The position numbers and the translations under genes were made by a program. From Paracyclopina nana (taxonomy: Eukaryota; Arthropoda; Copepoda; Cyclopoida; Cyclopettidae): a stretch of 64,000 nucleotides of DNA. Shown in pieces: positions 12,155 through 62,330 of the stretch. Where the stretch lies: NCBI GenBank assembly GCA_019096065.1, contig JAGUCH010000010.1, forward strand, positions 62,001 to 126,000, given 5' to 3'. Positions within the stretch are counted from its first letter, which is position 1; every line of letters starts with the position of its first letter. Under the pieces are notes generated by a model that had not been told where the DNA came from, made no database searches, and saw nothing but the letters and a program-made list of their open reading frames with translations.

Positions 12155-15100
12155 ATGCTGACTGTCGAAGAGACTCAAATGGAGGACAAGTTTTGTGCCA
12201 AGTGCTCCAGACCGATCCTGGATGAGTATCTCACCACTCTCATGGATCAATGGTGGCATGAAAAGTGTGTCCAATGTGATGATTGTGGTGACCAACTCAC
12301 TGAGTCGTGCTACTCCAGGAATGGAGGGATTTTCTGCCAAACTGACTTCTACAGGTGGATATTATGATTACCAATGTTTGATGAAGATCTTGTCAAATTT
12401 CTAATTGCATGACTCAAATCATCAAGTGTGAAACAATTTAGCTTTGTTTGTTTGATATCTCAATTGAAATTCTAATTTGAGTTTTGACAAATCAAATTTT
12501 AATTTGACAAATCAAATTTCAATTCTACAAATCAAATTTTAATTTGACAAAGGAAATTTTAATTTAATGAATCAAATTTGAATTTTGTCTAATCAAAGTT
12601 CATTTTTGCCAATCAATGACTTTTGACAATACCAATTTGAAATTTCAATTTGAATTTGGAGCTGTCCAACTGAATTTGAGTTTGGCAAAATCTAGTTGAA
12701 AATTTAAAATTTTCCAACAGAATTTTATTTTTATTTTAACAAAGAATTTTGTTCAAGGATAGATGAACGCCGCAAAGATTAAAAACCAAGTGTTGTCGTG
12801 ATGGCAAAAAGTTCCATTTCATTTTGTGGTCATCAAAACATGACTGTGGTTGAAATAAGCAAAAACACATCCAAGCAAAGAATTCTCTTGACCCAGTTCA
12901 TCATTTATTTGGTGAAACATTATTCTAACATCCATTAAACATTTGAGCATAAAAAAGCAAATGTGGTTTTCTAAAAATCCACACACCTTTAAAAATATTC
13001 AAATGATCAATATTTAACCAGATAAATCCTTGCATTCGTTAAGAATAATTAAATTTGCTTTTAAAATGTAATTTCATGATAAAAATCAAATTTGATTACA
13101 AGCATCAAATTTGATTACAAGCATCAAATTTAATTACAAGCATCAAATTTGATTACAAGCATCAAATTCAAAATCAAATTGTATGTCAAAAATCATATTT
13201 GGAACAAAAATCAAATTAGTGGTCAAAATCAAATTAAATGTCAAAATCAAATTTGATGACAAAAATCAAATTTGTTTGTCAAATTAAATTTGATGACAAA
13301 AATAAAAAATTATATAGCAAAGCAAATTTGATGGTACAAGTAAAAATTGATCAAAAATATATCATTTGACAAAATTCAAATTTTTTTACGCTAATCAAAT
13401 TTGTTGACAATTATTTTTCAAAATTTTCAAAATTATTTCAGGCGATTTGCTCCGAAATGTTCTGGATGCGATTGCACTTTTAGGCCAACTGATTTGGTGC
13501 GAAAAGCACGTGACCACTTTTTCCACGTGAATTGCTTCGTGTGTGCAATTTGCCATCGCCAATTGATGACTGGAGATCAATTATTCATCATCAATGGGCA
13601 TTTGTTTGTATGCAAACAAGATTACTGCGACGGCAGAAACTATTTCCAACATGGCAACCACTTTTCAGGTAACAGAAAAATTTGAATAAGTTCAAATTAA
13701 AAAAATAAGTTGAAATTTGAAAAGAATAAGGTCACAAGAATCAAATTTTACTAGAATAAGTTCTAATTTGACTTGAATAAGATCAAACTTGAAAAGAATC
13801 AATTTTGACTAAAATATAGTCAAATCTGATAAGAATTTGAGCTGTATAAGGTCAAATTTGACAAGAATCAAATTTTACTTGAATAAGTTCAAACTTGAAA
13901 AGAATCAAATTTGACTGGAATAAGCTCAAATTTGACTTAAATCAAATTTGACTAGAATAAGGTCAAATTTAATAAGAATCAAATTTAAATTGAATTAGGT
14001 CAAAATAGTATGACTTAATCAAATAATAAAGCCAAGTTTGAAAATCAAAATCAAGTCAAAATTGACTCAAATAGGATCCAATTGAAAAACAGGGAGATAC
14101 TTTTGAGCATAACAGTAATAGAGTTGCCATTCATCATTTTGAATTATTAATGTTTTAATAGCACTGTTGACAAGTTAAGCGTATTGAGCCTATCAAGCGT
14201 AAATTGTCTCATTTCAATAAACCGCAAATCATGACAGATAGCGACAAGCAACCAATCGAGCATGAGGTGTCCAAGCTAGAAAGACCCGTTCATCTACTAC
14301 ATATGCGTAAAATTTGAAATTTGAAAAATTTAAATTAATTGGAATTAATGGATCGAGCTCCAAGTCGTGCCTTGTGCACTAGGCCTCAAATTTAGGGACA
14401 CGATGCATAAGCAAAATATCTATTTAAAGTGGGTCAAAACTGAATTAAAATCGGCCAAATTTTTTTATTCATATTCAAAATTTGGCCAAATAGCTCCGAA
14501 AATTTGATTAAATGCCTACTAATTTGCAATTTTAAATACCAATCAATTTGAATATTTTGAATAGGAAAAAATATATATTTTTTTTAATTTGTCAAAAAAA
14601 TTGAATAATTTGATTTGTTGTCCAAAATTGTAATTTTAAATGTAATTTCAAATGTGAAAATTCTGCTTTAAAAATCTTATTTTATTTGGGGAATAAAAAT
14701 TTAACTTTATTTCCGTTTTAATGGAAACATAATTAGAAAATTTGAATTTTTCTCGCAGCAGATGACCGGGGCCTTTTCTTCGTCTGAGAAAACCTTTGAG
14801 TTGTCATGAAAAATTCTCAATATTCATGCACGCAACTTTTACATCTGAATGAATATGAATGTGCGATTGCGGTCGAAATTTCGGAACAAATAATAAAAAA
14901 TGACATTTTTTATTATTACGTTGCAGCGCTCACATCGCAGGACATTGAAGACAACAATCAGCTGACGTTTGATCAGCAAAGATGTCAACAACCACCTTCC
15001 CTCCCCTTGATGTCAGCTGATGCCCTCAACATAGACTCGGCCAACAATTCTAAGCAAGATTTGACCAATGCACAGTGGGCCACGGAGACCCTTATTTCTC

Positions 15101-18100
15101 CATTTCAGCTAAATTATGAAATCCAGTTTCAAACACTTTTTTATCTTATAATAGTTCCTATGGGTTCTTGGTGATCAGAAATGGCCATTTAAAAGGCTCT
15201 AAATTCAATTTGATTTGTGAAATGAAGATCATTTTTGAGAAGCAACCCGAATTTGCTAAAAAAAATCTAAGAAAAAAGAAATGTCAAAAAGTGGCTACAA
15301 GCTTCAACTGTTCCATTAGAACTATAATTTTTTTTGGTTGAAGCCTTTAATTAGAGTTAGTTTAAGTATTTTAGGCCTCAAGAGAACAGGATTTCATTTA
15401 AAATAAGTGTCAAAATTGACCCAAAAAGATGACTCTTCTATTTGCATGTAAAACTAAACCAAATATTAGCAGAACTTTTTATGTCCAAGGTTGTCCAACC
15501 TATAACACTGTCAAATTAGAGAAAAAGTAATATGAACAGGGTTGAATTGCAAAAAAAGTGCGTGGATGTGCGTAAGACTTTGCTAGAAAGAGTTAAAAGT
15601 TCGAGTTTTACAGTCATTTAGGGGCTTTGCTAATGCACTGCCGATTTGACGAAAAATCAGAAATGGAGGAAAATGCTTCAACGGGACCCACTGTGCAATG
15701 ATCACAATTTGGATTCTGCAGGTTTCTTTCCTTTTACTTTAGTCAAATGTATATGGTCAAATTTGACTCAAACATAGTCAACTTTGACTGACACATAATC
15801 AATTTTGGCTCATAAATTCTCAAACATTTGACTCAAATATAATCAATTTTGACTCAAACATTTGACTCAAATATAATTAATTTTGACTCAAACATATGAA
15901 TAAAAAATCTGACTCGAATATTTGACTCGGATATTTGACTCAAACATTTGACTCGGATATTTGACTCAAACATTTGACTCAAATAGAGTCAACTTTGATT
16001 CAATTATAGTCAAATTTGATTCAATTATAGTCAAATTTGATTCAATTATAGTCAAATTTGGCTCAAACGTAGGCAAAGACTCAAAAATATACATGATCAA
16101 ATTTGAATCAACTTTCATCAAATTTGACTCATTCATACTTTTTTATATGTAGTATTTGAAATTTGGCTGGATTTGATGTAATTGCGGCTTTTTGGAAGCA
16201 GAACTGTGGCTTTAATTGTTTCGTCAAAAAGTAGCTCTCCCCTTTTGCTGACACTTTTCTATCATTGCACAGTGGGTCAAAAAGCCATTTTCACGCGCAT
16301 GAGAAAATCCGCCAAATCGCCCGAATTCTCATTTAACCACCAATTTTCAACTTCTAATTGGGTTGACTTCTAGGCAATGAAAAGAGCCAAAAATGGTTTG
16401 AATTGACAGATACATATTCAAATTTGACTTCAAAGTCAAACTTAGCGTGAATAAGTTTTCAGCAAGAAAAATGGTAGAATAGCTTTTTTGCCCATTTTTG
16501 GGCATCCATAACTTTTGATTGGAATCGAATTGAATTGTTCTTTTATGACTGAGAGGTCAATCAGACCCCATTTAATGATTATTCATCAAAATTGGCTGCG
16601 GAAATTTGCGGACTTGGGAGTTCTGAATGTCCGTGTTTAGCTGACGGTCCTATGAAAATTTACTCCTTCGATTTCGCGAGTTTTTTTCTAGTAAGCGTCC
16701 AGTAAGCATTTTGAGCCACTGTGCATTGTATAATGGAAAGGTAGCACTTATGATTAATGGTGAATTAATATTCATGGCAAATGAGGATTGTTGACAGCCA
16801 CGAAAAAGCTCAAAATGAGTACAGAATATCTCAGTAATCAAAGCAATTTGCTGATTAGGCTTAAAACACTGCAATTGACTCAATGACTGAAACTGACTCG
16901 AAATCTGGGCATTTTATCTTTTTGACTTAAACAGGGTCATGATACTTAAAATCCGGTTCATGATGCCTTAAACTGGTTCATGAGACTTTACAAACAAGTT
17001 CATGAGACTTAAAAACTGGTTCATGAGACTTAAAAACTGGTTCATGAGACTTAAAAAATGGTTCATGAGACTTAAAAACTGGTTCATGAGACTTAAAAAT
17101 GGTTCATGAGACTTAAAAACTGGTTCATGAGACTTAAAAACTGGTTCATGAGACTTAAAAACTGACTCGTGAGACTTAAACAGGCTCATGAGAGTTAAAC
17201 TGGCTCCTGATACTTAAAACTCTCTCATGAGACTTAAAAACTGGTTCATGAGACTTAAAAACTGGTTCATGAGACTTAAAAACTGGCTCATGATACTTAA
17301 AACTATCTCATGAGACTTAAAAACTGGTTCATGAGACTTAAAAACTGGTTCATGAGACTTAAAAACTGGCTCATGATACTTAAAACTATCTCATGAGACT
17401 TAAAAACTGGTTCATGAGACTTAAAAACTAGTTCATGAGACTTAAAAGCAGATTCATGAGACTTAAAAACTGGTTCATGAGACTTAAAAGCAGGTTCATG
17501 AGACTTAAAAACTGGTTCGTGAGACTTAAAAACCGGTTCATGAGACTTAAAAACTGGCTCATGAGACTTAAAAACTGGCTCATGAGACTTAAATTGGTCC
17601 ATGAGACTTAAATTGTGACTCCTGTGAGTCAAATAAGGCAAATGACTAACTATTATTGAAATGAAACTGACTTTATGTTTTCAGATGATGAGAAACAGCT
17701 GAGCAAAACTGAGAATATTACTGGGAAGAGGCGAGGACCGAGAACCACCATTAAAACCAAGCAATTGGAGATGCTCAAAAGTGCCTTCAATTTGACACCA
17801 AAGCCATCCAGACATTTGAGGGAGCAATTGGCCAAGGAAACTGGATTGCCCATGAGAGTGATCCAAGTAAGCTTAAATCCTTAACTTAAGACTTGAACTT
17901 AAGACATTTGTCTTAAATATGCTTATAAAGTCTTAAAACTAAGCTGACTTAAAATAAAGTCTTATTTATCATATCATATAATAAGTCAAAGTCTTAATCC
18001 TAAGATACCTCATTAAGTATTGTGTACTTAATTAAACTTAAAAAAAACTTATAGGAATTCTCAACTAAGTCTTCTTCATCATATCATACTTAAACTCCAA

Positions 18101-21100: not shown

Positions 21101-22933
21101 TATATAGTCATTTTCAGGCTGAATTATTTATTAAAATTGCATTATTTTTTAGATTTCCTTCAAGTGATTTTGAAATGTCATTATTTTGCAAATTGTGAAT
21201 TTTACCATATTTTATTGCAAACTTTCATAGTTTTAACTTTTTTGAGGTAATATGTAAAAATACGCTTTTTAAAGAACAAACATTGGCAGATGAGCAGGGC
21301 CTTGGCCAATGGTGTGAATAACAGCGACATTTATTGACTCAAACGTGTTTTCTCAATAGTGAAAAGAAGCCAATAATTCAGGATTTTTAAGGCCGAAAAA
21401 GTCGTAAAAGTGATGCTGACACCAAAAGGATGCTCACGCATAAAAACCAATCCTTTCTTAGCCTAATTGAGAAATCTGCGGCCAAAAAGGGCAGCAAATC
21501 TTTTAAAAGCCTCCACGAGGTGGAAAACAAGGTTTGAAAACATGGCAAAAACTGGTTAAATAAGTTAAGTAAGCAGAAATGTCTGAGGGTTAAAAAAGTG
21601 ACTCAAACATGTGAGTTTTAACTCATATTTAAAGTTAAGTAAAGTATGTGATTTAAATATGTGAGTCGAATCTGTGAGTCCAATATGCAATGCAAACATC
21701 TTGAGAGTCAAATATGTGAGTCAAATTTGTGAGTCAAATATGTGAGGTAAACCTGTGAGTCAATTATGTGAGTCAATTATGTGAGTCAGTTATGTGAGTC
21801 AAACCTGTGAGTCAAATCTGGAAGTCTACCATGTGAGTCTACCATGTGAGTCAAAATTGTGAGTCAAATATGTGAGTCAAAATGGTGAGTCAAAATTGTG
21901 AGTCAAAATTGTGAGTCAAATATGTGAGTCAAAATGGTGAGTCAAATATGTGAGTCCAATGTATGTGAGTAAAATATGTGAGTTAAATATGTGAGTCAAA
22001 TATGTGAGTCAAATATGAGAGCATAATCTATGAGCCAAATCTGTGAGCCAACCTGAGAGACTTGTATGTGAGTTTGACAAGCCTAATATTTGTCATTATA
22101 TACAAATCTTCGAGTCATGTCTATTTTTAAATCTATTAGTCAAATTTGTGTATTGAATCTATGAGTCAATTTCCTAAGGCAAATCTATGATGTGAGTCAA
22201 ATCTATGAGGCATATTTACGAGTCAAATCTATGAGTCATATGTATAAGTCACATCTATGAGTCATATGTATAAGTCAAATTGATGAGTTAAATCCATTAG
22301 TCAAATCTATGAGTCAAATTGATGAGTCAAATTGATGAGTCAAATCAATGAGTCAAATCTATGAGTCAAATATATGAGTCAAATTGATGAGTCAAATTGA
22401 TGAGTCAAATCAATGAGTCAAATCAATGAGTCAAATCAATGAGTCAAATCAATGAGTCAAATCAATGAGTCAAATCTATGAGTCAAATCAATGAGTCAAA
22501 CCAATGAGTCAAACCAATGAGTCAAACCAATGAGTCAAACCAATGAGTCGAATCCTTGAGTCAAATCTAAGAGTCAAATCAATTAAAAGCATTAAAACAC
22601 ATTTTCTGCATTTTTCAGGTTTGGTTTCAAAACAAGCGGAGCAAAGAGAGGCGAATGAGGCAAATTTGCAACCGGAACAAGTACTCAAATACCGCCAACA
22701 ATTTCCCTCAAAAAACGCCACCCAACAACGGCTTCTTTTTCTACGATGAACGACGGCCAGAGTTGCCAGAGTTTCCAGCCGACTACCAGAGTTTCTCGCC
22801 AATTCTGGCCGAAAGTGGCCACTTTGAAAATGGTAAACAAACAGCTGACTTTCCAGGCATCTAAAATGTTTTTTTTTTTCAATTCACAGATCTTTTGCCA
22901 TCAATGGAGGAAATGAATTCTGCTGAGCTTTAG
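12155..22933 (+). CDS. Lhx1/5: LIM-homeodomain transcription factor, Lhx1/Lhx5 (lin-11/mec-3) class; six exons, one carrying a transposon
   Basis: Exons are 12155-12354 (LIM1), 13442-13668 (LIM2), 14927-15721 (linker, interrupted by a transposon at 15071-15695), 17685-17866 (homeobox, first part), 22619-22832 (recognition helix and tail) and 22890-22933. Without the transposon the total is 343 residues. LIM1 spans about 14-66, LIM2 73-129 and the homeodomain 213-272. The homeodomain keeps RRGPRTTIK, the helix-3 core [13 protein letters not shown] and Gln50. The acceptor splits YR|RF exactly as in the FFRRFGTKC junction of vertebrate Lhx1. The homeobox intron falls between residues 46 and 47 (IQ|VW). 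Lhx1/5 proteins bind DNA and the Ldb/Chip cofactor through their LIM domains, and specify neurons and mesoderm. The protein is shorter than vertebrate Lhx1 (about 400 residues), having lost most of the C-terminal region. A later in-frame ATG at 12179 would sit closer to LIM1, as in vertebrates. Without the last intron the frame stops at 22864. Confidence 0.92.
12470..12725. repeat. ATCAAATTTTAATTTGACAA array, Lhx1/5 intron 1
   Basis: About 18-20 bp degenerate units rich in CAAATTTGA-like palindromic words just after exon 1. It is followed by about 350 bp of AT-rich unique sequence before a related array resumes at 13080. Confidence 0.75.
13080..13400. repeat. ATCAAATTTGATGACAAAA array, Lhx1/5 intron 1
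   Basis: Units such as AAGCATCAAATTTGATTAC and AAAATCAAATTTGATGAC run up to the acceptor of the LIM2 exon. TCAAATTTGA is a perfect palindrome, so single strands of this intron could form many small hairpins. Confidence 0.8.
13690..14060. repeat. AATAAGGTCAAATTTGACTAG array, Lhx1/5 intron 2
   Basis: About 22-bp degenerate units (AATCAAATTTGACTAGAATA, then AGTTC) start directly after the LIM2 exon. It is the same CAAATTTGA core as intron 1 with a different spacer, so related but locally private. Confidence 0.8.
15071..15695. mobile_element. 625-bp non-autonomous DNA transposon with CACAGTG ends, Transib/RAG-like, inside Lhx1/5 exon 3
   Basis: Both ends are CACAGTGGG in inverted orientation. 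Aligned without gaps, the terminal inverted repeats match at 27 of the first 36 positions, including a shared CTCCATTTC at positions 29-36. It is flanked by exact 5-bp duplications CAATG (15066-15070 and 15696-15700). No transposase frame is present. A CAC-starting terminus with a 5-bp target duplication fits Transib, the superfamily related to RAG1. CACAGTG equals the V(D)J signal heptamer; a clear nonamer at fixed spacing is not seen. The insertion splits the Lhx1/5 linker exon. The superfamily call is by termini only. Confidence 0.8.
15740..16165. repeat. GTCAAATTTGACTCAAACATA array, Lhx1/5 intron 3
   Basis: About 20-25 bp units combining TTTGACTCAAA with ATAGTCAA. Three nearly perfect copies of TTCAATTATAGTCAAATTTG occur around 16008-16060. 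It lies between the two CACAGTG transposons. Confidence 0.8.
16268..16723. mobile_element. 456-bp non-autonomous DNA transposon with CACAGTG ends, Transib/RAG-like, in Lhx1/5 intron 3
   Basis: Inverted CACAGTGG termini match at 28 of 40 positions without gaps (shared TCAAAA and GAAAA blocks). The flanks are exact 5-bp duplications CATTG (16263-16267 and 16724-16728). It shares ends, but no obvious interior, with the element at 15071-15695. Its target is the reverse complement of that element's target, which suggests a preferred pentamer. It has no coding capacity. Confidence 0.8.
16920..17640. repeat. AAAAACTGGTTCATGAGACTT 20-bp array, Lhx1/5 intron 3
   Basis: About 33 copies of a 20-21 bp unit (CTGGTTCATGAGACTTAAAA), very regular, with a 60-80 bp higher-order pattern where CTATCTCATGAGACTT variants recur. 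TCATGA is palindromic. Because the unit is near a multiple of three, the minus strand shows long spurious open frames (FKSHEPV repeats). It ends 40 bp before the homeobox exon. Confidence 0.92.
17885..18430. repeat. TTAAGTCTTAA-rich array ending in a 73-bp tandem triplication
   Basis: Loose CTTAAGTC/TTAAAC units follow the homeobox exon. From about 18196 a unit of about 73-85 bp (GAACTTAGTGGGCTTAAAAT, then CAACTCCTAAGTCTT) occurs three to four times with few changes, indicating recent local duplication. Confidence 0.8.
18431..18770. other. Non-repetitive island in Lhx1/5 intron 4
   Basis: A higher-complexity stretch between arrays, with an open frame of about 120 codons on the + strand (18409-18771). 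It is not bounded by clear splice sites and has no recognisable domain. It could be a transposon remnant, a regulatory element or chance. I do not call it a gene. Confidence 0.3.
18771..19330. repeat. ~170-bp tandem duplication and TTAAGGCTTTAAG array
   Basis: A block starting AAAAGGTATTTTCAGACC begins near 18773 and again near 18941. Both copies run through the same series of CTTAGGTTCTTAAGTC-like words. Looser CTTAAG-type units follow to about 19330. Confidence 0.8.
19331..19835. other. Unassigned part of Lhx1/5 intron 4
   Basis: Mixed unique sequence with no gene seen. CCACTGTG at 19672-19679 looks like an isolated end of a CACAGTG-type element, but I found no partner end with matching flanks. 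Confidence 0.4.
19836..20130. repeat. AAAATACTATAATTTTAAA array
   Basis: Very AT-rich 15-20 bp units (ATACTATAATTTAAAAA) of low complexity within intron 4. Confidence 0.75.
20160..20560. mobile_element. Dispersed element copy A with AAGCTAAG / CTTAGCTT ends
   Basis: The core 20220-20510 resembles 33490-33790: shared words in the same order include TTGGTACCA, TTTGGCAAGTTTC, CATTTGCTATG and CCTCATGATTTCT. The left edge has AAGCTAAGCTAAGGCTAAG and the right edge CCTTGCTTAGC, i.e. inverted ends. The interior has GAGATCCGAGG against CCTCGGATCTCC, so it can fold back. No coding sequence is recognised. Probably a MITE-like family. Confidence 0.65.
20773..21301. mobile_element. Possible ~530-bp element with GCTCATCTGCCAAT terminal inverted repeat
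   Basis: GGGCCCGCTCATCTGCCAAT near 20773 is mirrored by ATTGGCAGATGAGCAGGGCC ending near 21301. The interior is strongly AT-rich without a frame. The target duplication is not clear, so the exact ends are uncertain. Confidence 0.55.
21590..22570. repeat. TGTGAGTCAAATA / GATGAGTCAAATC array, Lhx1/5 intron 4
   Basis: About 13-bp units: first ATGTGAGTCAAAT (21600-22020), then a transitional zone, then ATGAGTCAAATCA (22200-22560), nearly perfect near the end. It stops about 60 bp before the acceptor of the helix-3 exon. TGAGTCA, the AP-1-type bZIP site, occurs dozens of times. Confidence 0.92.
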
Positions 22934-26711: not shown

Positions 26712-27701
26712 ATGACTCAGCAGAATTGCTTCAAGTGCCGTCAAGGTTTGGAGGAAACCGTTGAGGTCAACTCCATCCAGGTTGGAAACCTTACACGGTT
26801 CTACCACGCCGAGTGCCTCACCTGCGCCCTTTGCCCTCCGGCGGAGTTCGAGGGCAACCTTTTTGCCCACGAGGATCAGGTGCTGTGCCAAGGTCACTAC
26901 CTGGCCAAGGTTGGCATCGAGTGCCGAGGCTGCAAGAGTGGCATTTTCCGCGAGGATTTGGCCTTTAAAATCGCCTTCTCCGCCCACAACAAGGTTTTCT
27001 ACCATAAGGCGTGCCTGCGGTGCGCGCAGTGCGGCGAGCAGCTGCAAACCGGTCAATCCGTGGACGAGCGCGGGCACTGCGCGGCGTGCGCCAAGTGCTC
27101 AGCTGTTGCGGCTGCGGCTGCGGCTGCGGAGGAGGAATCTTGCGACGACAAGGAGGAGGAAAATAGTCCCCGGGAAAACGGGTCGAAAAAGAGGACGCCG
27201 CGGACCAAGTTCACCGAGGCGCAAACCCAAACCTTGGTCAGGTTCTTCACCACGCAAACCATACGGCCAACAAGGTTGATGCGCGAGGAATTGGCGCGCA
27301 AAACCGGACTCGACATCCGCTGCATACAAATTTGGTTCCAAAACAAACGGTCCAAAGACAAGCGGATGACCGCCAAGCGCAATGCAATGCTCTGCACGGT
27401 GGCGCCACCTGGCGGACTCAACTGGTACCACTACAACCAGCAGCAAACCCTGCAAACCTTGCCGCCACAGCAGCATGAACCTTGTCATCAAACCTTGAGC
27501 CCGCCGCTCAGCAGCCCAGAAAACACGCTATACCCCACCCCGCCACCCTCCGACTACTTTACACCCCACTTTACACACCTCGAGGGAAACCACTTTACAA
27601 GCGCCACTCAGCCGGATGGAAAGCCCGTGGTGGAAAGCCACTTTACCGAGCTCCCCTCGCCGCCCTGGACGATGGAAAGCCAAACTTTCCAACTGCTGTA
27701 A
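26712..27701 (+). CDS. Divergent intronless LIM-homeodomain transcription factor
   Basis: A single 329-residue frame. LIM1 has all eight zinc ligands (C6, C9, H32, C35, C38, C41, C59, H62), and so does LIM2 (C71, C74, H98, C101, C104, C107, C123, C126). An Ala run and an acidic linker lead to a homeodomain at about 160-219 with [20 protein letters not shown], Gln50 and Asn51. The tail is rich in Gln, Pro, Thr and His. Start chosen at 26712 because the longer reading begins upstream of the inferred transcription start. LIM1 has a longer first loop than Lhx1/5, and helix 3 has [13 protein letters not shown], between Lhx1/5 and Islet patterns; I cannot assign a class. Unlike its neighbour it has no intron and is GC-rich, consistent with retroposition or intron loss, though it has its own promoter and poly(A) signal. 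Same strand, 3.8 kb after Lhx1/5. Confidence 0.93.
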   Translation: MTQQNCFKCRQGLEETVEVNSIQVGNLTRFYHAECLTCALCPPAEFEGNLFAHEDQVLCQGHYLAKVGIECRGCKSGIFREDLAFKIAFSAHNKVFYHKACLRCAQCGEQLQTGQSVDERGHCAACAKCSAVAAAAAAAEEESCDDKEEENSPRENGSKKRTPRTKFTEAQTQTLVRFFTTQTIRPTRLMREELARKTGLDIRCIQIWFQNKRSKDKRMTAKRNAMLCTVAPPGGLNWYHYNQQQTLQTLPPQQHEPCHQTLSPPLSSPENTLYPTPPPSDYFTPHFTHLEGNHFTSATQPDGKPVVESHFTELPSPPWTMESQTFQLL

Positions 27702-60164: not shown

Positions 60165-61035
60165 AAGTCGAGAAACGGCAAAATATCGCTAAAAATGGCA
60201 AAAATTCGTGAAACGGCAAAAGTGTAAAAAATTAGTATTGAAACGGCAAAAACGTAGAAAGCCGTAGAATTGCCACATAAGGCTTAAAACGGCAAAAATG
60301 GCAAAATTAAGAAATGGCAAAAATGCAAAAAAGCCGAAAAAAGGCAAACAGCCAAATAATGGCAAAAATTGAGGAAAAGCCAAAAAATGGCAAAATTGAG
60401 AAAAGGCAAAAAAGGCAAAAATTGCAAAATAAGCCTAAAGAAAAATGGAAAAACAAAAAAATGGAAAAAAATGAAGAAAAGCCAAAAAAAAAAATATGGC
60501 AAAATTGAGAAAAGCAAAAAAAAAAGGCAAAAATTGCAAAATAAGCCTAAAGAAAAATAGCAAAACTAAGCAATGGCAAAAATTGAAGAAAACCCAAAAA
60601 TTGCAAAATTGAAAAAAGGAAAAAAATGGCAGCAATGGCAAAAAAGCCTAAAGAAAAATGGCAAAGCTAAGCAATGGCGAAAATAGAAGAAAAGCGAAAA
60701 AAGCCTATAAGAAAAATGGCAAAACTAAGAAACGGCAAAAAATGAGGAAAAAAAAAAAATAAAAAAAAAGAAAAAAGGCAAAAAATGGCAAAAACGGCAA
60801 AAAAGCCTAAAGAAAAATGGCAAAGCTAAGAAATGGCAAAAATTGAAGAAAACCCAAAAAAAAAAAAAAAAAAATAGCAAAATTGAGAAAAGGCAAAATT
60901 GCAAAAATAAGCCCTAAAGAAAATGGCAAAACTAAGCAGTGGCGAAAATGTGGGAAGAAGCCTTAAAAATATGGCTGAAATGTAAAAAATTAGCTTAAAA
61001 ACGGCAAAGATATTGAAAAAGGCAAAAATTCCGAG
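60165..61035. repeat. AAAATGGCAAAAATTGAGAAAAGG array
   Basis: Purine-rich strand with units of 10-12 bp (GGCAAAAAT) and a longer pattern of GCCTAAAGAAAAATGGCAAA about every 80-120 bp. Strong strand asymmetry (few pyrimidines on +) could favour triplex or R-loop structures. It yields spurious Lys-rich and Phe-rich frames. Confidence 0.88.
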
Positions 61036-61730
61036 TCCGAGTTTGCATTGATTTTTCAAGGTTAAGATTTGTCAAAGTGGCAATCATTCAGTTTTATGCG
61101 CCGAGGGATCGAATTTTTGGGCACGAGCTCAGCGAAGAGGAAAAGGAGGGCAGGTGAACCGGATCCGATTTCGCGTCTTTTTTCTCGCGGCGAAATGTAC
61201 ATTTTATTCTAGAGTTGTAGCATATAGAACATGTGGTCTATTTGGCAGATTTCAAAAGTGTTTTGAGTGGTGTATCGATTTCAGAGAGCCGCAAAATAAA
61301 TGGGGATTTAGCCAGCCAACCGATTAATATGAAAATTTGCCACCAAAAATGTGATTATAAGCGAGTTTCATGACCTCGCTACGGCTCGGCAGTGAAACTT
61401 TCACTTGGATGTCGGATGTTTACTTCAAATATTTCATTGTTTATGAGCCAAACAATTATATACATTTTTTGGTGTGAGTTAAGTCAGCGGCCCTCGCTAC
61501 GGCTCGGGTATGAAAAATTTCCCTCGGCTAATAACAGGGTTTTTTTTGGCTTTTTTTGGTGCCAAAATGTGTGGCATCCTTGTAGGAAGTTGCCACTTTG
61601 ATCTTCTAATTATGACTTGACAAGCAAATTGGCCTTTTTTAGACGTGAAACAAGATTTTTCTTGTTTTGTCAATGAAGTTTCATGTAAATAAAAATAATT
61701 TTTTGTTACACTGCTATTTTGATTTTCAGT
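61036..61730. other. Island with CTCGCTACGGCTCGG repeats
   Basis: CCTCGCTACGGCTCGG occurs near 61374 and 61492, matching the ends of the element at 36.36 kb. GGGCAGGTGAACCGG at about 61149 also occurs at about 53325. No gene. Confidence 0.35.
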
Positions 61731-61734
61731 AACT

Positions 61735-62330
61735 TTTAAAGTCATTTTAAAGTCACTCTCAATTGACTTTTTAAGTTGGTTTAAAAGTCACTTTTATGTC
61801 AAGTTCAATCTCATTTCACTTTTAAGAGCGTTAAGCTACGGTTTAGTCATATTAAGTCAGTTTTAAGTCATTTTTAATCATCTTTTTAGTTTTTGAAAGT
61901 TCCTTGCTGGTCACTTTTATTAAGCTATTTTCTTCATTTATTATATCTCATTTTTATCACTTTTTAAACTCTTTTAAATCACTATTTAATCATTTTAAGT
62001 CTATTTCAAATCATTTTTAATCATTTTAAGTTAATTTCAAGTCATTTTTAATTTGTTTAATCAATTTTAACTAACTTTTTAATCATTTTACATTACTTTC
62101 AAGTTATTTTTACTTACTATAATTACTTTTAAATAACTTTTTAATCATTTTAAGTCACGCTTCATACAACTTTTTAAAAGTTTTTCAGTCATTTTAAGTC
62201 ACTTCAATGTTCAGTCACTTTTAAGACGTTTTCAGTCGTTTTTCAGTCATTTTCAGTCGTTTTTCAGTCATTTTCAGTCGTTTTTCAGTCATTTTCAGTC
62301 GTTTTTCAGTCATTTTGAACTTGCTTGAGT
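61735..62330. repeat. AAGTCATTTTTAATCATTTT array
   Basis: Loose 10-20 bp units, then a regular run of CAGTCATTTTCAGTCGTTTT at 62230-62320. Confidence 0.8.

Follow-up and report, generated by a model that had tools for sequence, protein, structure and literature searches.

A stretch of 64,000 nucleotides of the copepod Paracyclopina nana, called the window here (C10:62001-126000, contig JAGUCH010000010.1; assembly G000, 92 Mb in 10 contigs), carries a LIM-homeobox gene whose third exon is split by a transposable element, el1, and the same exon lies uninterrupted in a second assembled copy on contig C6. We consider it highly probable that el1 is a Transib miniature inverted-repeat transposable element (MITE) that was moved in trans and entered exon 3 recently, on one of the two assembled copies. 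The element and its borders are as follows.

15071..15695, plus strand: el1, read as a non-autonomous Transib-type element (MITE) within exon 3, from its letters, copies, terminal inverted repeats (TIRs) and duplications
15066..15070, plus strand: left target-site duplication CAATG, read from the letters
15696..15700, plus strand: right target-site duplication CAATG, read from the letters
15071..15106, plus strand: left TIR with heptamer CACAGTG, 27/36 identical to the right end
15660..15695, minus strand: right TIR with heptamer CACAGTG, by comparison with the left end

el1 measures 625 bp, and its inverted termini (CACAGTGGG...CCCACTGTG) carry the canonical heptamer CACAGTG at left and right. 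The two TIRs agree without gaps at 27 of 36 positions, while 20,000 random pairs of 36-mers from the window peak at 22. The element is too short for a transposase-length open frame and contains stops in the frame of the exon; being short, devoid of a transposase and present in many near-identical copies, it fits the definition of a MITE. An earlier sequence-only reading of this DNA had described the inverted ends, the 27/36 match and the exact CAATG duplications, with coordinates that are correct to the base.

The interrupted gene is composed of five predicted exons.

12155..12354, plus strand: exon with LIM domain 1 and the assumed start codon (splicing and frame, Pfam)
13442..13668, plus strand: exon with LIM domain 2 (splicing and frame, Pfam)
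14927..15721, plus strand: exon 3, interrupted by el1 and 165 nt long once the element and a CAATG copy are removed; phase 1-1 (splice signals and frame; uninterrupted on C6)
17685..17866, plus strand: first homeodomain exon (splicing and frame, Pfam)
22619..22861, plus strand: last exon found, with the homeodomain end and the C-terminal region (splicing and frame, Pfam)

Once el1 and one CAATG are taken out of exon 3, the five exons form a single open frame with two LIM stretches and a homeodomain, and Pfam profiles recognize both the LIM domains and the homeodomain in the joined protein. The removal of these 630 nt leaves an exon of 165 nt with the donor CAG/GTTTCT, in frame with the exon at 17685-17866, exactly the open phase-1 exon ending CAG/GT at 15721 that had been proposed from the letters. 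The gene may be an Lhx1/5 member, judging from class residues on top of the LIM and homeodomain profiles; its best matches among solved structures are Lhx4/Lhx3, which leaves Lhx1/5 undecided.

Of special interest is the empty site on C6. The match between window 13300-15080 and C6:6958387-6960157 (100%, rounded) ends exactly at window 15070, and window 15701-16262 continues at the very next base, C6:6960158, with 92% identity. The C6 letters at the join are GACCAATGATCACAATTTGGATTCTGCAG followed by GTTTC, with a single CAATG and no element; the empty join that the sequence-only reading had predicted (ACC AAT G to AT CAC) is thus present letter for letter. The exon differs from that of the window by one base (G/T), approximately 30 bases to the left of the join, and the intron just after is more divergent. 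Identity between C10 and C6 is about 100% over the 1771 bp to the left of the insertion and 92% over the 562 bp to its right. Because the C6 exon is empty, the insertion breaks one of two assembled copies. C10, a contig of 268,240 bp, pairs with the end of C6, and the simplest reading of these alignments is that it is most likely an unmerged alternate haplotype of that end.

el1 belongs to a family with many copies, and a sister element lies in the following intron.

16268..16723, plus strand: el2, sister element of 456 bp with duplication CATTG, of which C6 has only a remnant (copy search and flank comparison)

Counting the window copies, 40 scored matches were obtained for each family, at 94-100% identity for el1 (from 71 candidates) and 91-100% for el2 (from 373 candidates). 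Duplications were tested at 30 of the 40 scored copies of each family, which were fetched with the window copies among them, and exact 5-bp duplications border 29/30 el1 loci and 29/30 el2 loci, in all 58 of the 60 fetched copies of the two families. Four of the 29 other fetched el1 loci match the window element at 625/625 positions, which suggests that el1 moved recently. A degenerate 20-base pattern of the terminus occurs genome-wide 56 times forward and 55 times in reverse, and its reversed-pattern control 0 and 0 times. Over the 58 sites the target consensus is C-CANTG-G: positions 1, 2, 4, and 5 of the duplication hold C 49, A 44, T 36, and G 42 times, with C immediately before it in 34 cases and G immediately after in 32. 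The duplications have 49% GC, against 35% for the window.

The hAT superfamily was rejected, as it needs 8-bp duplications and none of that length appeared when exact duplications of 2-11 bp were scanned at the 60 loci. An insertion preference for open frames was also discarded as unconvincing, since stretches of at least 100 aa span 41% of the 58 empty sites and 35% of background points. A census of heptamer pairs in the window and in L001-L060 (CAC[AG]GTG pairs at most 9 kb apart, TIR at least 14/30, exact 5-bp duplications; pairs of el1 or el2 size excluded when outside the window) recovered the el1 and el2 copies in the window and nothing else.

Transib transposases are relatives of the enzyme that rearranges antibody genes, and they are well represented in this genome. 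A Transib fragment, validated as a query by its match to HzTransib (6pqn, E=8.8e-78), has 15 genomic matches. A protein encoded on C5, of which the 489 aa that follow the first open frame were used, has 16 matches, itself included, the others being 38-71% identical; with neighbouring pieces joined these correspond to 13 places, 10 of which have an open frame across at least 438 of the 489 query residues, the comparison being confined to this C5 part. The C5 protein matches HzTransib (6pqn) with E=4.9e-55 and 123 identities over 390 aligned residues, and it keeps all three DDE positions (D, D, E) at a spacing that matches D126, D225, and E436, the catalytic residues of HzTransib (PMC6941560). 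Termini were read at two of the 13 places. The C5 element, read whole, has 3109 bp, TIRs beginning CACAGAAGGTTAAAAG and the duplication GGTTG. The C3 element, of which the two ends were read, is bounded at 10177911-10181251 (3341 bp), with CACAGTGGGCCC at both ends and CACCG duplications; the C3 transposase place thus lies between CACAGTGGG ends, which match each other at 31/36 positions and are identical to the el1 ends at 11/12. All four Transib ends read contain AAAACTCGC 15-16 bp past the heptamer. Among the 30 el2 loci, this motif occurs within 70 bases at 29 ends, and AAAATCCGC is found at 28 ends. The Drosophila melanogaster Transibs hopper and transib2 produce 5-bp duplications at the target CCANTGG (PMC3276498), a motif that the 58 sites of this genome yielded independently. 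Because of the 5-bp duplications, the CAC ends, the CCANTGG target, the DDE transposases in the genome and the heptamer-ended C3 element, the sequences compared here support a classification of both el1 and el2 in the Transib superfamily, as non-autonomous members. This affiliation had been suggested earlier from the CAC ends and 5-bp duplications, and the genome's Transib transposases, the CACAGTGGG-ended one among them, and the target motif now reinforce it.

Several points weigh against our interpretation. The AAAACTCGC motif occurs in 0/30 el1 loci, and on this ground el1 was set apart from the families of the C3 and C5 elements. The searches that the sequence-only reading had proposed, for elements with shared termini and for Transib transposases, were successful. 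Of the 111 terminus matches 100 were listed, and among these no long element with the 20-bp ends of el1 was found. Ten regions were fetched in the search for such an element, nine at apparently unpaired ends and one at a pair 727 bp apart, leaving out the unpaired end C7:3568124, where the el1 query already matched over its whole length. Two of the nine unpaired ends are whole diverged copies (L063, 86%; L069, 89%), five match part of el1 (L061, L062 over 66 bp, L066, L067, L068), and L064 and L065 together make up a single el1 copy on C3. The ten regions contain none of the 13 transposase places. No parent element sharing the interior of el1, from which it could be an internal deletion derivative, was found. 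The Pfam RAG1 model PF12940 finds nothing in the genome, although control genomes are equally silent, and it scores weakly against the C5 protein (E=0.0047, 15.5 bits, below the cut-off of 25). Loci L005 and L038 are without exact duplications, some stretches of C10 and C6 diverge by about 8%, which is high for alleles, and exon 3 is predicted from splice signals, frame and phase.

A few of these loci deserve mention in their own right. L065 and L064 (C3:2707173-2730495) are two el1 halves 23.3 kb apart with aaatg on both outer sides, as if one copy had been split by a nested insertion of approximately 22.7 kb; the outer parts of this region, read on either side of a middle 6.5 kb, contain several long open frames. 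The partial copies L067 (C4) and L068 (C7), although on different contigs, share the flank cggcg and agree in the length and identity of their alignments, and possibly represent duplicated DNA. At the el1/el2 sites L055, L023, and L003, joining the flanks gives protein-like open frames of 292-407 aa across the site, so that further coding exons may have been hit; the frame at L055 resembles by eye the end of a DEG/ENaC channel.

With el1 in place, the exon frame meets a stop within the element, upstream of the homeodomain. It is doubtful, though compatible with a recent Transib insertion, that the el1 copy is tolerated at the RNA level, either by skipping of exon 3, with loss of a 55-residue linker, or by splicing out of el1. 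Skipping the exon (165 nt, phase 1-1) keeps the two LIM domains and the homeodomain in a single open frame, and no Pfam domain has its best stretch within the exon 3 part. Against this, a scan within 14990-15689 for donors with a score of 5 or more out of 8 gave a single frame-restoring GT-AG candidate for el1 as an intron, with a poor acceptor tract and the loss of 27 nt of exon, and tolerance is unneeded if the el1 allele is heterozygous. The earlier suggestion of tolerance through splicing is therefore disfavoured for the element as an intron, while skipping of the whole exon would, from the predicted phases, stay in frame.

The main rival is that C10 is a second, duplicated locus, so that one of two paralogues is broken and heterozygosity is unnecessary. 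Identity as low as 92% in some stretches and the presence of C10 as a separate contig in the assembly speak for such a duplication. We nonetheless regard it as unlikely, given the small size of C10 and the fact that all five window stretches searched match the same part of C6 at 92-100%, with order and orientation kept; these include both window ends (600-2200 at 97% and 61000-62200 at 92%). The proposal of a disruptive, possibly heterozygous allele made in the sequence-only reading is thus favoured by the empty C6 copy, with a duplicated C10 locus as its alternative.

The empty C6 site could also result from a precise excision rather than represent the pre-insertion state. Such elements do get lost, as the nearby el2 site on C6 (L074, C6:6960690-6960790) consists of CATTG, CACAGT, 42 interior bases (window 16534-16575) and CATTG, and reads as an excision or deletion remnant that has kept the initial 6 bp of el2 and 42 bases of its interior. 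At the el1 site, however, CAATG occurs exactly once on C6, with no footprint, and the hairpin cleavage described for Hztransib (PMC6941560) would be expected to give imprecise joints, which makes a precise excision very improbable. Given this remnant, el2 would have been present before the two copies diverged and later have been mostly deleted on C6, and el1 is probably younger than the el2 insertion.

That el1 is a RAG1L-RAG2L transposon, or belongs to another TIR superfamily with 5-bp duplications, is hardly credible: CAC ends and 5-bp duplications are common to RAG-like (RAGL) elements (PMC7204232) and RAG2-like genes lie outside the searches made, but by eye the CACAGTGGG of el1 misfits the protostome TIR consensus CACTWMCAAACKTYKBB (PMC7204232), and the genome has Transib transposases.

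We therefore favour a recent Transib insertion, which may have proceeded as follows. A Transib transposase of the same genome would mobilize el1 in trans, recognizing its CAC-starting heptamer ends and cutting it at another site; known Transib transposases form flank hairpins and generate 5-bp duplications (PMC6941560, PMC7204232). The element would then be joined to both strands of the palindromic C-CANTG-G target (here CCAATGA) with a 5-bp stagger, and gap repair would produce the CAATG duplication. The insertion would have hit coding exon 3 on the C10 copy, with C6 keeping the pre-insertion site, and read-through of the el1 copy would be predicted to lose the homeodomain.

Comparison with known systems places el1 close to Transib, exemplified by HzTransib of Helicoverpa zea and by hopper and transib2 of Drosophila, with which it shares CAC heptamer ends, 5-bp duplications and the CCANTGG target, in a genome encoding a RAG1-like DDE transposase; it differs by the lack of a transposase and of the subterminal AAAACTCGC motif seen in the two Transibs with ends read. 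It resembles other MITEs and non-autonomous Transibs in being short, with intact ends and many near-identical copies, but no el1 parent with the same interior was found. The CACAGTG at both el1 ends equals the consensus heptamer of the V(D)J recombination signal sequence (RSS; PMC8289069), whereas no RSS-like nonamer is evident by eye in the first 70 bases of el1; the C3 Transib ends are ordered as heptamer, 16 bp and AAAACTCGC. The arrangement also recalls the model in which V(D)J recombination originated from a transposon in a receptor exon (PMC8355894), as a heptamer-ended element splits an exon whose clean form is pre-insertion; here, in contrast, the host is a developmental transcription factor gene, and nothing points to programmed excision.

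The RAG1 core and RSS-type ends are considered to derive from Transib (PMC4411706), and RSS-like heptamer ends of Transibs as well as non-autonomous RAGL copies are already published (PMC6941560, PMC7204232, PMC8355894). The kind of element is thus already known, and the new value lies in the pair of filled and empty exon copies in one assembly, beside Transib transposase genes that are open over the part searched. In the literature searched, no report of this el1 insertion was found, nor any pairing of Transib with CACAGTGG, and the matches listed on Transib insertion polymorphism in coding exons do not name this case. A split exon of this kind would allow excision outcome, footprint repair and exon skipping to be studied directly. 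It also calls for caution in annotation, as the LIM-homeobox gene is broken on this contig, in one of two assembled copies only. More speculatively, and with little probability, the el1 copy might be kept through in-frame skipping of exon 3, or through somatic Transib cutting at CACAGTG, by which some cells would restore or re-join the exon. If true, the former would yield a LIM-homeodomain isoform with a short linker, and the latter would offer a present-day counterpart of the split-exon stage that has been proposed in the emergence of V(D)J recombination.

Three further features were noted. On C1 (2178473-2179870), an open frame of 703 aa is Transib-like but shares only 38% identity with the C5 transposase, and may represent a distant lineage or a domesticated gene. 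Within the window, a TTCATGAGACTTAAAAACTGG-type unit forms a long tandem array in the intron that follows exon 3 (16920-17620, by eye), and another LIM-homeobox gene, contained in a single open frame, lies downstream of the first at 26715-27698.

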